Shown here one piece after another: positions 515-6,350 of a stretch of 6,350 nt of DNA; positions within the stretch are counted from its first letter, which is position 1, and each line of letters opens with the position of its first letter. Source of the stretch: an uncultured bacterium (GTDB lineage: Bacteria > Patescibacteria > JAEDAM01 > Absconditabacterales > Absconditicoccaceae); assembly GCA_937950065.1 (NCBI GenBank), contig CALFEN010000317.1, positions 1 through 6,350 on the forward strand, read 5' to 3'. Position numbers and translations under genes: made by a program. The notes beneath the pieces were generated by a model, which was not told the DNA's origin, searched no databases, and worked only from the letters and a program-made list of their open reading frames with translations.

Positions 515-1057
515 TTATAATTGAAAATATGAAAAGTCTTTTATTTTTCAAATTCCAAGTCTATTTATTTTCAAAATTTCAATGTCAAAATTAAAATCAT
601 TTGGAGAGGCAAAAACTCTGTCATCTATATAGATGATTTTTTCTTTATATTTTTTATAAATTTTTTTTAAATCTTCTACTTTATTGGCATCTGAAGTAAA
701 AATACATCAGTCCACAAGATTTCTTGCTCAAGAGTGAATAAGTTTTTTTTCTTGAAAATATTTATCTCAATAGGTCAAAATCAACTTCTTTTCTTTATTA
801 TTTTTACAGAACGAGATAAAATCATTATATAAAAAATGTTTTGTATTTCTTCGTACAATATCGAATTCTTGTTCTTTGATTCAGCACTTACCAAGTCGCC
901 GTTTGAAATCAAACATTCAGTTATTTACTACCTTGCTATAATTCATATTTTCCTGCAGCATCTTTGGATTTCTTCAGGTATTACAAAAAATATCCATAAA
1001 AAAATCTACAAATCAGTTTTTATCAAAAATAGTTTCATCAAAGTCTATTACAAACAT
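515..1057 (-). CDS. HAD-superfamily hydrolase (phosphatase-like), substrate unknown
   Basis: A 180-aa protein when TGA is read as Gly (8 TGA against 2 GGN glycine codons). HAD motifs are visible in order. Motif I is FVIDFDETIF at residues 2-11, with D5 the expected nucleophile and D7 the acid/base. Motif II is LILTYG at 92-97, with T95. Candidate motif III lysines are K126 and K131/K132 in TSDANKVEDLKK. Motif IV is IIYIDDR at 141-147, with D145/D146 as Mg2+ ligands. HAD enzymes form a phospho-aspartate intermediate and remove or transfer phosphate in the cytosol. Residues 15-85 would form a small helical cap; there is no signal peptide or membrane segment. The start ATG lies 11 nt after the rseP stop on the same strand, so the two genes are probably cotranscribed. 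The leader is A-rich without a Shine-Dalgarno motif. The fold is well supported; the substrate cannot be read from sequence. Confidence 0.85.
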
Positions 1058-1068
1058 CTTTTTTATTT

Positions 1069-2277
1069 TTATCAGATTCATGGAATAGAGACATTCCAAA
1101 ATCTTTGTAAATCTAATAACATTACATATATACCAAATCACATAAGTAATATGAAAAATATCATATTTACATAGTTTTCAAATGTAAAATATTTTTCAGG
1201 CTTTAATCTAAATATTTTTTGGATCAATATTCACAATGTCCTTCATCAGTCCAAAGCAGGTATCGGTAGTACATTGAATATTCACAATGCTAATGATATC
1301 ATAGCTGCAAATGAGAGATAATGCAAAAATCCAAAATATTGTAATATAATTTCTCCAACCTTAACCGCTCATATGGGACCTGACATTTTTTCCATAGAAC
1401 TTTGGATTCTCTGTTTGTTCATAGATACTAGATTTGAAAAGAGTGCTCATAAAAGATGGTAAGTAAGAACTGTTTCTTCTTTCATCTCTATCACTGATAC
1501 TCACATTGCTGTAACAAAATCAAATTTTATAGGTATCATTTGAGTATCGCCGCTTCAGGAATGAATTATATTTAATAGACAACTGTCCGGTGGACAAGTT
1601 ATGTTTTTATCTATTTGCTGGTCTCATCTTTGAATTTTTAAATCAAAGGATTTCCCATAATTGTCTTTTAGAAGCGTTCATATATTTAGGCTATCTACAG
1701 GATTATTGTTTATAGTCAAAAAAATATCTCACGAAAGAATATCATTTTTGGCTGCCAAACCGTTGGGTGATACATCAATCACTTCTAATGGTACTGCTAT
1801 GGATTTGCCTGTCAAGAATCACTGTTGTGTCAGGAATTCTTCTGTAGGCATTAAGTAACTGTGTGTTTCAACTGGTAGGGCGTTTTTGGGAAGTAATTGC
1901 ATAGGTTTTATTCATATGGTGAATATTATTGTGAATAAAATCCATGCAAAAACCAAGTTCATACTAATTCATGCTAACAATATGGTAAGTTTTTTCCATA
2001 TATTTACTCACATGAAACTATCAGGAGCATTGAATTCTTCTTCATTTTCTGGAGATTCTCATTTTAGTCTGACAAATCATCAAAGTGGAATCCAGTTTAT
2101 AGTGTATTCGGTTCAACTTTTATCTGTATAAAACTTAAATGCTCTTGGAGGTATGCCAAACCCAAATTCCAATACTTTTACTCAAGCTTTTTTGGCTGCT
2201 ATAAAGTGTCCTAATTCGTGTATTAGTATCAATACAACAAAAAGAAGTATTCATATGATTATAAATAATATTTGCAT
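1069..2277 (-). CDS. rseP: RseP-type site-2 zinc metalloprotease (RIP, M50 family)
   Basis: A 402-aa integral membrane protease that cleaves transmembrane segments of anchored proteins within the bilayer; in characterised bacteria it acts after a site-1 cut of anti-sigma factors or on leftover signal peptides. Helix 1 (about 3-25) ends in the zinc motif HELGH, with H20, E21 and H24. Next come GFGIPPR (39-45), the membrane-loop motif WIPLGGFVRLKGE (62-74), and a second helix region with AGISMN (102-107). One PDZ domain covers about 160-225 (GLAAKNDILSGD at 173-184). SGPIG follows at 299-303, then the third zinc-ligand motif NVLPIPALDGGR (335-346), with D343. A last helix spans about 372-389. 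A single PDZ and 402 aa fit the RasP/short-RseP type rather than the two-PDZ E. coli form. It holds 24 TGA-Gly codons, including both glycines of LDGG, against 11 GGN. The ATG at 2277 puts HELGH at the usual distance from the N-terminus. The gene lies upstream of the HAD gene in a likely operon. Confidence 0.95.
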
Positions 2278-2323
2278 AGTGTATTTTGTTTAATTAATAA
2301 TTTTTTTTTAGGTATTTTTGCTA

Positions 2324-2364
2324 AATATAAGAATAATTATAAAAATATTGTCAAAAAAAACAAT
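2324..2364 (-). promoter_or_regulatory. Candidate rseP promoter
   Basis: On the minus strand a perfect TTGACA (2354 to 2349) is followed after 18-19 nt by TTATAT/TATATT (2330 to 2324), about 45 nt before the rseP ATG. An alternative on the same strand is TTGTTT (2363 to 2358), 16 nt, TATAAT (2341 to 2336). In such AT-rich DNA chance matches to the -10 box are common, so only the exact TTGACA carries much weight. Confidence 0.4.
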
Positions 2365-2790
2365 AGTTTTTTGAATAAAATAGCAAAATGTTTACAAAAC
2401 ATTTACTTTTATTTTTATTTATTTTATAAGTTTATTCAATCTTTACAAAAGAATAATTAAATTTTGTCATTGTTTTTATGCGATTAATAATTTTAGTAGG
2501 CTTTTTTGTTAAGTAAATATATGGCACAGTTTTAATTTTATCTAAAAATTTGAACTAAAATAGAGTAGAGATTAATTTATTTCGTCTAACAGAATTTTGA
2601 AACGCTTACGAGTTGTTTATTAATACTGATTTATTTAGATGGGTTTACTATTGTTACATTGGATTCTGTTTTGGACGCATTTTTTTTGGGGAAATATATT
2701 ATATATTTTATAAAACTAAAAAACAGACAGGCGTTTATTTTTTGTAAATAGAAAAATAAAAGAATAATTATTATTTAATCTAATAAAATT

Positions 2791-2818
2791 TTGACAAAAA
2801 AATTTTTTTTAATATAAT
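2791..2818 (+). promoter_or_regulatory. Full-consensus sigma70-type promoter of the 728-aa gene
   Basis: TTGACA at 2791-2796 and TATAAT at 2813-2818 are both perfect consensus boxes, separated by a 16-nt A/T tract (mainly A then T). Transcription would start near 2825, leaving a leader of about 30 nt before the ATG at 2855. AAGGAA at 2826-2830 sits at the very 5' end of that leader, 24 nt before the ATG, too far to act as a Shine-Dalgarno site. The perfect boxes suggest strong, largely constitutive expression; that is inference. Confidence 0.75.
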
Positions 2819-2854
2819 AAATAAAAGGAATTTTAAAAAAATAAAAACAAAAAA

Positions 2855-5041
2855 ATGACAGCTCAAAATTATATTGATAATGAAGTTTGAAATATAATAA
2901 AGTTTTATAGGCATATTTCCAGATTTCTTTTTTGAAGTGGAATATATATTGTTCTTATAGTTCTTTCAGCTTTATTTGTTTTCTTTATAATTGGTGAAAT
3001 CCAGATAAACCTTGGTTGAGATATAATTTCCGGGATCTCTTTGTGACAAGTTAAATCAAAAGATTTGATAAGTGCAAACAAAATGGAGATATTAAATAAT
3101 TATAAGAAAGACGGAGTAAAGTATGAAATATTATGATGATATATTTTTTGAGGTAGTGGGCAGACATATTCTTATAATAATTTGTCTTCTATAAATAAAA
3201 TAGTATTGCCATATAGATTTTATGTAGACAAAGAGACTTTGTCGCAATATTCAAGCTTAAAAAATACAGATATGAAATTCCTTTTGGATTTTGTGCTGAA
3301 AAATATTTTGTTGAAGAATCCTACAGATGACGATTCTGTAGATGTACAGGACCAATGAGTGAAGTCACTTACCAATGACGACATCTCTAAAACATTTAAT
3401 TTGATATGCTTGGATAGTTTCGTTGTTACTCCATTTTGTCAATTAGAAATAGATAATTATTTGAATAACGTATCTTTTTATGATTTGTCAAAAGATATGG
3501 TTTGAGTGAGAAAGATTTATAATAAATTACGTAGTAAATGATATAAAGATGCTGTTTGTAAGTCATATCAAAACTATACAAATTTTGCACTTGATTTTAA
3601 TGATAGTTTTTATTCTATATTTCAGGATTGTGGCGGCGAATATTTATCAAATTATCAGTTGTCAAAAGATTTTAATAATATAAATCAGAATATTATATCC
3701 AATTCACTTGATAATAAGCTTTATTCAACTCAATCATTGAATGCCTATAAACTACTTTCTTTTCAGAAATTGATATATGTAAACTACGAATATGGAAAAA
3801 ACTTTAACGTAGATTTGATTTGAGTTTATCTGTCTTTTGTTTCTAATCTTCTTTCAGAGCAGAAAATCTGAGATCCGTATTATGATATTATATATCTTTA
3901 TGATAATTTCTATTTATCACAGGTAATCAACGTTCAAAAGAGTAATAGTAATCAGAAAATATCAGATGCTATACCTAAATTAACAGAAAAAATAACAAGT
4001 ACAAATAAATGAGATGGAGTTTTTATAGATAAATGACTGGAAAAGCTTATAAAAAATAAAAAATTGATAGAATTGTCAAATAAAAGTACTTCTATCTCTG
4101 TGGGCCCTTCTCAAGAGGTTTTCCCTATAAATAAATTTCAGTCTTTGATTAATTCTTTGGATGGGTACTATGCTACTACTATAAAAATGGAAGACAAAGA
4201 TAATACTATATATTATGCTAAATGAACTTTGGAGAAGAGTTTTTCTACAGAATGAACTAATACTAAATCAATAGTCATAAAGATTGATTTGTATTATAAA
4301 TATGACTGAAATAGTTTTCATATGCAAAACGTGAAAGTTTCTGACTACCCTGATTTGGAGAAGGTTATTAATCAGAGGATAAAAAAGAAATTTGATTTTG
4401 ATTTTTCTGATATCCTTGAAATTGTTAGAATATTTCCTTTGGAAAAGAATGTTTCAGTATCTTTTTGTAATAGAATTCAGGGATTGGATTTTGTGTGAGG
4501 AGAGCGTCCGGAAGTAAGAAATTGTTCTGAAAGTGATCTTGTTTTGTCCAGAGAAGAGATTACTTATACTTTCCATTTTAATGATGAAATATTGGATATT
4601 AATTCTATACAGATAAGTGATCTAGGAGTCCAGCAACAGGTCTATAATAGTTTGAGTTGAAATACTAATATAATAAAGGATACTTTCCTTAATATCCTAC
4701 CGACATTATTGAACTTTAAGGCGGAGCAATCTGCAGATGAAGAAGTAAATGATATAATAATTATAAAATTGAAAATAAGATCATATCTATGAATTGAACT
4801 TGATGATATTGCAAAAAAAGATGACAAAAATTATCATTTGAAATTTTCATTAAATTCTTATCAGATGGAATGTGATATTAATAAATCAGAAAATTATAGA
4901 TTATATAATCTTACTATATTTGGATGACAAAAAAGTTATAATCTTCAGAAATTTTCGTTAAATCTATTGGATAGTGAGAAGACAAAAATAAATAAATTTA
5001 GATTGGATCCTATATGATATATCAAAGAATACTTAAAGTAA
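2855..5041 (+). CDS. Membrane-anchored protein of unknown function, 728 aa, large extracytoplasmic domain
   Basis: I do not recognise a family. With TGA as Gly the frame runs 729 codons from the ATG after the consensus promoter to TAA; it contains 22 TGA and 17 GGN glycine codons. A short N-terminus with K16, R19, H20 and R23 precedes one hydrophobic helix at about 28-47 (GIYIVLIVLSALFVFFIIG). By the positive-inside rule this gives N-in/C-out topology, with about 680 residues outside the membrane. There is no cleavage or lipobox motif, so it should stay anchored. No second membrane segment is visible. Seven cysteines all lie outside the helix: C185, C195, C235 and C259 cluster in the first half, then C538, C557 and C673. 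Residues 100-360 are rich in Tyr, Asn, Ser and Asp; the rest alternates helical and beta-like stretches, for example 436-509 and 569-716. It stands alone on the plus strand between two minus-strand operons. A surface or cell-contact role is possible but unproven. Confidence 0.9.
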
Positions 5042-5172
5042 ATTTTTATAATTTGTTTATACACTGATATTTTTTAATAGTTTTTGCTTATTCTATTTTT
5101 CTCCTTGCATCTAAAATTTTCAAATAATTTTCTGAAAATTTAAATAAGATTACTTAATTATAAAATCTGGAT
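5042..5172. other. Convergent intergenic gap, weak AT-only hairpin
   Basis: The gap lies between the 3' ends of the 728-aa gene (plus) and tsaB (minus), where terminators for both would be expected. The best structure is AAATTTTC (5114-5121) with GAAAATTT (5134-5141) around a 12-nt loop. The stem has two G-C or C-G contacts at most in total, and no T tract follows on either strand. I do not call a terminator with confidence; it could be a weak bidirectional one. Confidence 0.35.
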
Positions 5173-5766
5173 TTATTGTTTAGTCGTAATATTTGGCTGG
5201 ATAATATAAATAGGTTGTACGTGATTGCTTGGGCTTATTCACATATTTTTGATATCTACTTTGTTTGTTTTATTTCTAAAATTTAATAATAGAGTTTGTC
5301 AATCAAAGTCGATGTTTATCCTATCGTCGATGTCTTCGAAAGTCTGGTCTAAAAATAGATCTCATTTATTTTTTAGTCAGATATCTGAGGCACTGACTTG
5401 ATCGTAGCTTTGAGATTGGAAATCAAAATTCCAATAGTTTTTTGTCTGTCAGATATATAGTAGTCATTTAGACGGTAGTAAGTTTTGCTTTACAAAAAGA
5501 GAATACAAATCAATTTTTGAAATATTAAATATCTCTATTTGGTTTTTGTATAAAAAATTTAACATATTTATACACAAAGTTCATACTCTGATGGAGGTAA
5601 AAGATCCTGGTCAGTTTACTATAAATATTTTGGAATAAAAATTTTTACCAAAAATATCTTTCAAAGTATTTGGCAGAGTTCTTTCAAGGTTTCTTTTTTC
5701 AAGAATTATTTTTTTTCATCATCAGATTATTATTATCTTATCTAGCGATAAATTCACAAAAAGCAT
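5173..5766 (-). CDS. tsaB: tRNA threonylcarbamoyladenosine (t6A) biosynthesis protein TsaB
   Basis: A 197-aa cytosolic protein. In the known bacterial pathway TsaB is a non-catalytic, actin-fold-like partner that holds TsaD (with TsaE) so that threonylcarbamoyl is moved from threonylcarbamoyl-AMP to A37 of ANN-decoding tRNAs. The family signature is clear at residues 52-62, GPGSFTSIRVG. The C-terminus has the expected VQPIYIIQPNIT (183-194), like the P-x-Y-x-x-x-P-x-x-T tail of TsaB. The N-terminus MLFVNLS aligns with the usual ILxIDTS strand but with Asn in place of Asp. At 197 aa it is shorter than typical 220-230 aa homologues, with the middle (85-150) divergent. It holds 11 TGA-Gly codons against 2 GGN; the first G of GPGS and the G of the final VG are both TGA. 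The ATG at 5766 lies 23 nt after the upstream pilin-like gene, so the two are probably cotranscribed. No Shine-Dalgarno motif is present; the leader is a run of T. Confidence 0.9.
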
Positions 5767-5789
5767 AAAAAAAAGTTAGTAATTAAAAA

Positions 5790-6164
5790 TTATCATTGCA
5801 CGAACGTTTCTATTAGTTTGATAATGGCGTAACTAAAAATAACCAATAATAGTCATATTACAGAGTATTTAATTCATTGTTTTCATTTGTTAGCCTGTCA
5901 TTGATCTGCACCAGCTGTGATAAATATTATACCGGATATGACTAATGACACTACAATTATTGTTCATATAAAGAAAGTTGTTCATTCTATTACGTCTTGT
6001 ACAAAAACGTCAGGATCATTATCTGCATTTCATTCTCTGATGTGCAGAGTATCATATATTTTGAGGCTACAGCTTCATTTGGTTATTTTGTCTGAATCGC
6101 AATCTATCCCAGCATTGTCTGAATCTGCCAGTATTATTTGATTTTCTAGGGTTCAATTTTCCAT
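5790..6164 (-). CDS. Small two-helix membrane protein, T4SS pilin/VirB2-like
   Basis: A 124-aa protein (10 TGA and 3 GGN glycine codons; TGA is also the last codon before TAA). The N-terminal 60 residues are polar and acidic, with C22 and C32, and contain no clear signal peptide. Two hydrophobic helices follow at about 63-84 (FFIGTIIVVSLVISGIIFIT) and 100-118, joined by a short loop, AGADQGQANKGKQGIK (84-99), rich in Gly, Lys and Gln. This helix-loop-helix ending with an A-G-A-D-x-G-Q-x-x-K-G-K loop is the pattern of the short pilin-like proteins common in CPR genomes and assigned to the TrbC/VirB2 or T4SS-pilin group. In characterised systems VirB2 subunits form the conjugative or secretion pilus. 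No other secretion gene is visible here, so a pilus role is inferred from architecture only. The first ATG is used; the leader is AT-rich without a Shine-Dalgarno motif. It probably forms an operon with tsaB. Confidence 0.75.
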
Positions 6165-6227: not shown

Positions 6228-6257
6228 ATTATGAAAAATTATTTGATTTTGTTTCAA
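6228..6257 (-). promoter_or_regulatory. Candidate promoter for the pilin-like gene and tsaB
   Basis: On the minus strand TTGAAA (6257 to 6252; 5 of 6 consensus bases) is followed after 18 nt by CATAAT (6233 to 6228; 5 of 6). Transcription would start near 6221, giving a leader of about 57 nt. AT richness makes chance -10 matches likely. Confidence 0.4.
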
Positions 6258-6303: not shown

Positions 6304-6350
6304 ATGAGAATACCAGAATTTGCTATACCTCTTATAGTTGCTTTTATTAT
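6304..6350 (+). CDS. Possible 5' start of a plus-strand gene cut by the window end
   Basis: ATG at 6304 opens a frame reading MRIPEFAIPLIVAFI and runs off the window. A short charged start followed by a hydrophobic run would suit a membrane or exported protein. The evidence is thin: only 15 codons are seen. The minus strand is also open here (for example a frame ending in TAA at 6231 to 6229, and another ending at 6287 to 6285), so this could instead be the 3' end of a minus-strand gene upstream of the pilin-like gene. Confidence 0.25.
   Translation, partial: MRIPEFAIPLIVAFI

Follow-up and report, generated by a model that had tools for sequence, protein, structure and literature searches.

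The stretch of DNA studied here, 6,350 nucleotides long, covers positions 1 to 6,350 of contig CALFEN010000317.1 from an Absconditicoccaceae assembly (GCA_937950065.1); "the window" below means this full length. It is AT-rich (25.8% GC) and carries five long genes, namely those for a HAD-like phosphatase, the site-2 protease RseP, a protein of 728 amino acids (aa), TsaB and a pilin-like protein of a type IV secretion family, all of which contain in-frame TGA codons (Table 1). An earlier note on this DNA, made from the sequence alone, had proposed that UGA is read as glycine throughout the window, and our analysis leads to the same reading.

Table 1. Genes of the window and glycine motifs encoded with TGA.
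Feature	Positions	Strand	In-frame codons	Family match or conservation
HAD-like phosphatase gene	515..1081	-	8 TGA	PF00702, E 0.0091, under the Pfam cut-off
rseP, site-2 protease (M50)	1069..2277	-	24 TGA, 11 GGN, 4 TGG	TIGR00054, 196.3 bits (cut-off 147.55); PF02163, 160.9 bits
Both Gly of LDGG (RseP residues 344, 345)	1243..1248	-	two adjoining TGA	Gly in 15/15 readable standard-code rows per column
Both Gly of IPLGG (RseP residues 66, 67)	2077..2082	-	two adjoining TGA	Gly in 15/16 and 16/16 standard-code rows
Gene for 728-aa protein with hydrophobic N-terminus	2855..5041	+	22 TGA, 17 GGN	no assigned family
tsaB, divergent	5173..5766	-	11 TGA, 2 GGN, 1 TGG	TIGR03725, 24.7 bits (below cut-off 69.3)
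First Gly of GPGSFT (TsaB residue 52)	5611..5613	-	TGA	code-25 relatives: GGN 8/9, TGA 1/9
Type IV secretion pilin-like gene	5790..6164	-	10 TGA, 3 GGN	PF18895, 28.0 bits (cut-off 26.6)

Recounting the five frames under NCBI translation table 25, in which UGA is glycine, gave exactly 75 TGA against 35 GGN codons, in agreement with the about 75 and about 35 counted by hand in the earlier note. TGA thus makes up 75 of the 110 glycine codons of the five genes, about two thirds, and exceeds all GGN codons together, as had been claimed. The claim that the frames are open only if TGA is a sense codon proved correct as well, as not a single TAA or TAG occurs inside any of them and all five end with TAA. 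The alternative two frames over the same DNA contain 9 to 66 TAA and TAG codons apiece. Under table 11, the longest open reading frame of the window is only 112 aa long and lies antisense to the HAD gene and rseP.

It might be argued that these TGA codons are real stops, and that the genes have decayed or the assembly is ridden with errors. The assembly is indeed imperfect, as one end of the contig (positions 1-30) carries an untrimmed stretch identical to the Illumina TruSeq read-1 adapter. Yet neither decay nor error would be expected to leave 75 TGA codons, all in frame, and no TAA or TAG within the same five genes. Moreover, rseP, tsaB and the gene for the 728-aa protein are open with in-frame TGA in relatives too, and RseP retains its conserved motifs HExxH and LDGG. 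On the grounds of the missing TAA and TAG codons and of this conservation we rejected the reading of UGA as a stop, to which we give practically no credence.

The identity of the decoded residue was assessed by setting TGA in RseP in turn to each of the 20 residues and scanning the products against NCBIfam. Glycine gave the best score for TIGR00054 (196.3 bits), followed at a distance by serine (169.1), aspartate (168.1) and alanine (166.3), with tryptophan at 151.1 and the lowest value, 135.0, obtained for isoleucine. A similar ranking was found for TsaB, in which 10 residues were tried: glycine gave 24.7 bits for TIGR03725, alanine 19.2 and serine 16.0, and with tryptophan the match was lost. 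As all these scores are lower than the cut-off of 69.3, and the match covers residues 45-89 only, TsaB is to be regarded as a divergent member of its family. The motif positions named in the earlier note were all located (Table 1), and the solved RseP structure 7w6x has Gly-Gly at the position of LDGG. As far as sequence comparison goes, we consider it confirmed that TGA is decoded as glycine in the window genes.

Comparison with relatives allowed us to weigh this reading against a competing one, decoding of UGA as tryptophan according to table 4, as in Mycoplasma. A degenerate RseP pattern, accepting GGN or TGA at glycines, revealed 31 loci in GTDB genomes; an exact match was required, and so the set does not hold every relative. 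These were aligned with TGA as X and formed two sets. In-frame TGA is present in 15 rows, from 13 Absconditabacteria and 2 Gracilibacteria (code-25 rows below), and the other 16 rows were treated as standard-code; to the latter set loci L005, L007 and L017 were assigned for having 0 or 1 TGA in rseP (the single TGA of L005 may be its stop). One locus, L060, was omitted from alignment A2 and retained in the column counts. The HAD, TsaB and 728-aa proteins were searched for in 16 genomes. At the 24 TGA columns of RseP, the standard-code rows show GGN in 140 of 306 readable cells, compared with 244 of 5082 for the other 363 columns, and tryptophan in none of the 306. In the code-25 rows GGN occupies 183 of 283 readable cells vs 151 of 5168 elsewhere, with an additional 59 cells holding TGA and 3 of the 283 holding tryptophan. 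The same enrichment, with no tryptophan, was observed for TsaB (GGN 30/81 vs 33/1589; 9 relatives, all code-25) and for the 728-aa protein (27/173 vs 124/6450; 10 relatives, all code-25).

Decoding as tryptophan would leave the frames just as open, and a public protein database carries exactly that translation for three proteins of the window. On the other hand, it would lower the TIGR00054 score by some 45 bits, abolish the TsaB match and place tryptophan in columns where relatives practically never have it. In addition, tryptophan already has its own codon here: TGG occurs six times in the window, four times in rseP and once each in tsaB and the HAD gene, which agrees with the earlier note for the first two genes and extends its observation to the third. 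One of these codons, at RseP residue 112, falls on a column with TGG in 14 of the 16 standard-code rows, and the column of TsaB residue 112 has TGG in 6 of 9 relatives and CGA or CGG in the other 3, so TGG remains a tryptophan codon in the window. Judging by column identity we rejected UGA as tryptophan, and we consider the chance that it is nevertheless true to be very slight.

Decoding of UGA as glycine would predict an appropriate tRNA and the loss of release factor 2 (encoded by prfB), both of which the earlier note had suggested looking for. Release factors and tRNA were searched for in the genomes of 20 of the 31 loci. ARAGORN found 37 tRNAs in the chromosome of RAAC1_SR1_1 (CP006913), one of which has a UCA anticodon, is 74 bases long and was labelled SeC. 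Selenocysteine tRNA has a long arm, which is absent from this molecule, and we rejected the label on account of that, the length and the glycine features of the acceptor. Namely, the acceptor end consists of G1:C72, C2:G71, G3:C70 and U73, which are the glycine identity elements applied in PMC8629427. The tRNA was matched in 12 of 13 Absconditabacteria genomes and is identical in 9 of these 12, RAAC1 counted; all 11 copies other than that of RAAC1 have the UCA anticodon and the same acceptor end. An initial pattern with assumed loop letters had given 5 matches in 4 of the 20 genomes, none of which was accepted as a tRNA, and it was replaced by the RAAC1 tRNA. This tRNA seems more conserved than its neighbours, being identical in 28 of 55 genome pairs (L121-L132) as compared to 3/55 for Ala, 6/55 for Tyr, 6/45 for Arg and 4/36 for Glu tRNAs, with the reservation that loci found by similarity to one copy are biased towards identity. 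Its loop, CTTCAGC, contains G37, which is unusual in tRNAs for codons starting with U.

As for release factors, prfB gave no match over its cut-off in any of the 15 code-25 genomes, and the longer prfB matches in these genomes fall on the prfA gene. The latter, with in-frame TGA, was found in 13 of the 15; its score exceeds the prfA cut-off in 9, and one gene is broken by a contig end. Five standard-code genomes were searched, of which two have prfB over the cut-off, while in a third the gene is split in two; among L005, L007 and L017, the genome searched for prfB was that of L017. This last genome, G009, comes from a bin with the title "candidate division SR1". Its prfB match exceeds the cut-off and its rseP is without in-frame TGA, so it looks like either a mislabelled standard-code organism or a mixed bin. 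In the relatives, then, both suggestions were borne out.

Several observations speak against decoding of UGA as glycine, or at least do not fit it smoothly. Many TGA columns show no preferred residue or a residue other than glycine: alanine occupies RseP residue 332 in 12 code-25 relatives and in 13 standard-code ones, aspartate occupies TsaB residue 15 in 8 of 9 relatives, and in the 728-aa gene, which is poorly conserved, the same holds for most of the TGA columns. ARAGORN did not find a tRNA in the window, and the tRNA and release factor evidence comes from relatives. The UCA tRNA was not matched in one Absconditabacteria genome (G016), and the Gracilibacteria genomes G006 and G007 gave only 19-base matches to it. 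Some code-25 genomes have extra short prfB matches of 19-29 bits outside prfA. Two code-25 bins, G007 and G008, gave neither a prfA nor a prfB match, and are probably incomplete. Finally, two of the five standard-code bins (G013 and G014) show no prfB of their own, and because of this the absence of prfB from any one draft bin is weak evidence.

Taking all of this together, we estimate a probability of about 98% that the window belongs to a divergent Absconditabacteria lineage using table 25, with UGA as glycine. In this lineage, UGA would have a tRNA-Gly of its own, with the anticodon UCA, release factor 2, the terminator at UGA, would have been lost, and release factor 1 would terminate at UAA and UAG. 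The genome from which the window comes would be expected to have the same UCA tRNA and to lack prfB. In this GC-poor DNA UGA has overtaken GGN, and the high UGA share would have been driven by AT bias. The correlation of UGA share with locus GC is negative and not significant (Spearman -0.44, p 0.10; 15 code-25 sequences, the window included and RAAC1 left out).

The code itself is not new. As the earlier note stated, it is known for Gracilibacteria and Absconditabacteria, where it constitutes NCBI table 25 and is described in PMC8629427 and PMC8080830; reading of UGA as glycine in a BD1-5 bacterium has proteomic support, according to PMC4032931. The window shares with this code UGA as glycine, UGG as tryptophan and genes ending with UAA, and its relatives have a Gly-type UCA tRNA and no release factor 2 match over the cut-off. 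It shares with the Mycoplasma code (table 4) the use of UGA as a sense codon and differs in the amino acid, glycine instead of tryptophan. As the code had already been established, the value of the present locus lies in its lineage and its annotation.

With respect to the lineage, a tree of 30 RseP rows (L006 and L023 omitted, L014 replaced by the RAAC1 chromosome) places the window within a clade of 14 Absconditabacteria rows, RAAC1_SR1 included, with support of 95/99. The remaining 13 rows of this clade cluster apart from the window at 91/89. The window may therefore be sister to all the Absconditabacteria sampled, a position that this support does not make firm. The highest identity of its RseP to any row of the tree is 54% (L030). 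Nearer relatives exist in the protein database, with identities of 74% for RseP, 61% for TsaB and 73% for HAD, which are underestimated so far as the entries carry tryptophan for UGA. RAAC1_SR1_1 belongs to the same clade. Its homologue of rseP is 53% identical and that of the 728-aa gene 24%; a search of it with the window tsaB gave no match. By this one gene, the window is placed as a divergent Absconditabacteria (SR1) lineage.

Where the window differs from other code-25 members is in the extent of UGA use. Its rseP has TGA at 24 of 35 glycine codons, the highest share among 16 code-25 sequences, followed by L030 (27/41) and L019 (15/23, a partial gene), with the rest at 0.15 to 0.33; the range for code-25 rseP other than that of the window is therefore 0.15-0.66, and RAAC1_SR1_1 has 11/46. 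High UGA use in code-25 bacteria was noted before in PMC10746230, and we do not claim it as new. Still, a divergent branch with UGA at about two thirds of its glycine codons helps to illustrate the extent to which a stop codon can be turned to a new use.

Table 25 may be right and still incomplete. CGA and CGG have been reported to encode tryptophan in Absconditabacteria by Shulgina and Eddy (2021; PMC8629427), which table 25 does not include, and this would extend the reading of UGA as glycine rather than replace it. The clade is the same, and relatives of the window have CGA or CGG on tryptophan columns: at RseP residue 112, where standard-code organisms mostly have TGG, 5 of the 15 code-25 rows have CGA or CGG; residue 394 is CGA in 6/15 and TGG in 6/15; and TsaB residue 112 was mentioned above. 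Part of this evidence comes from G020 (L050), whose RseP sits on a long branch. The five genes of the window have just three such codons, all within one poorly conserved gene, that for HAD (899-901, CGG; 896-898, CGA; 851-853, CGA; all on the minus strand). Read as tryptophan, they would give WW (residues 81-82) and W (residue 97), with numbering from the GTG at 1141. Three HAD codons may thus be misread if table 25 is applied by itself. However, the two closest HAD homologues show RR and R at these sites, and a distant one has H, W and G, though translations deposited for this clade are unreliable. HAD homologues are few, and a W in such a database protein may represent either TGG or TGA.

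Further points against CGA and CGG as tryptophan are that relatives have several of these codons on columns without tryptophan, above all in the 728-aa gene, and that the Gracilibacteria L009 and L024 have one CGA each on an arginine column (Arg in 23/30), their other CGA and CGG codons lying on different columns, none of which is tryptophan. The possible branching of the window outside the other sampled Absconditabacteria also argues for caution. On balance we consider it rather probable that CGA and CGG are tryptophan codons in the window too. More tentatively, and with slightly less than even chances in our view, the window could represent a deep Absconditabacteria branch absent from the sampled genomes that has carried the change of code furthest, in which UGA is the majority glycine codon genome-wide and CGA and CGG encode tryptophan. 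If so, three codons would differ from the standard code, one of them being dominant for its amino acid.

The consequences for annotation turned out to be somewhat different from those expected. The earlier note had assumed that standard gene callers would shred every gene of the window, which holds for table 11, but the database contains three of the proteins whole: P0001, P0121 and P0127 are the window RseP, TsaB and HAD proteins with tryptophan at every TGA. The practical error thus includes silent mistranslation of glycine to tryptophan, besides shredding. Up to five invariant glycine sites per RseP match were located by motif search, and among the 120 matches listed (of 7605), 78, P0001 included, have tryptophan in at least one of them. 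In P0001 these tryptophans correspond to UGA codons, and we infer the same for the other matches. Such entries look intact and are very probably wrong. For this phylum, alignments can be misled by them, as can predicted structures and the assignment of functions.

Some features of the individual genes deserve mention. The HAD frame opens with GTG at 1141, but its start is probably an internal ATG, at 1081 or at 1057, the latter as in database homologues. The HAD protein has four homologues in the database, one being the window's own protein. Similarly, the pilin-like frame opens with TTG at 6257, and its start is probably the internal ATG at 6164. Judging by the translations, neither choice costs a TGA. 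TsaB was matched in 10 of the 16 genomes, with one match short and weak. Rfam gave three matches in the window, all under the gathering score (two snoRNA families and one microRNA family), which we dismissed as chance. The viral_contigs pattern scan gave no match.

The 728-aa protein has matches at E <= 0.1 in 13 of the 16 sampled genomes, the long ones with 23-28% identity. Among the genomes sampled, its family occurs in all but one of the 13 Absconditabacteria and is missing from both Gracilibacteria, and a weak match of 70 residues was seen in the standard-code G009. None of the 10 aligned members has a Pfam family. Structure prediction was poor (mean pLDDT 62.6, pTM 0.47), and a fold search of the PDB gave no match at E <= 0.001. 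Six cysteines are conserved in all 10 aligned members. At the far end of the window, an open frame at 6304-6350, beginning with MRIPEFAIPLIVAFI, runs out of the sequence and is possibly the start of another gene.

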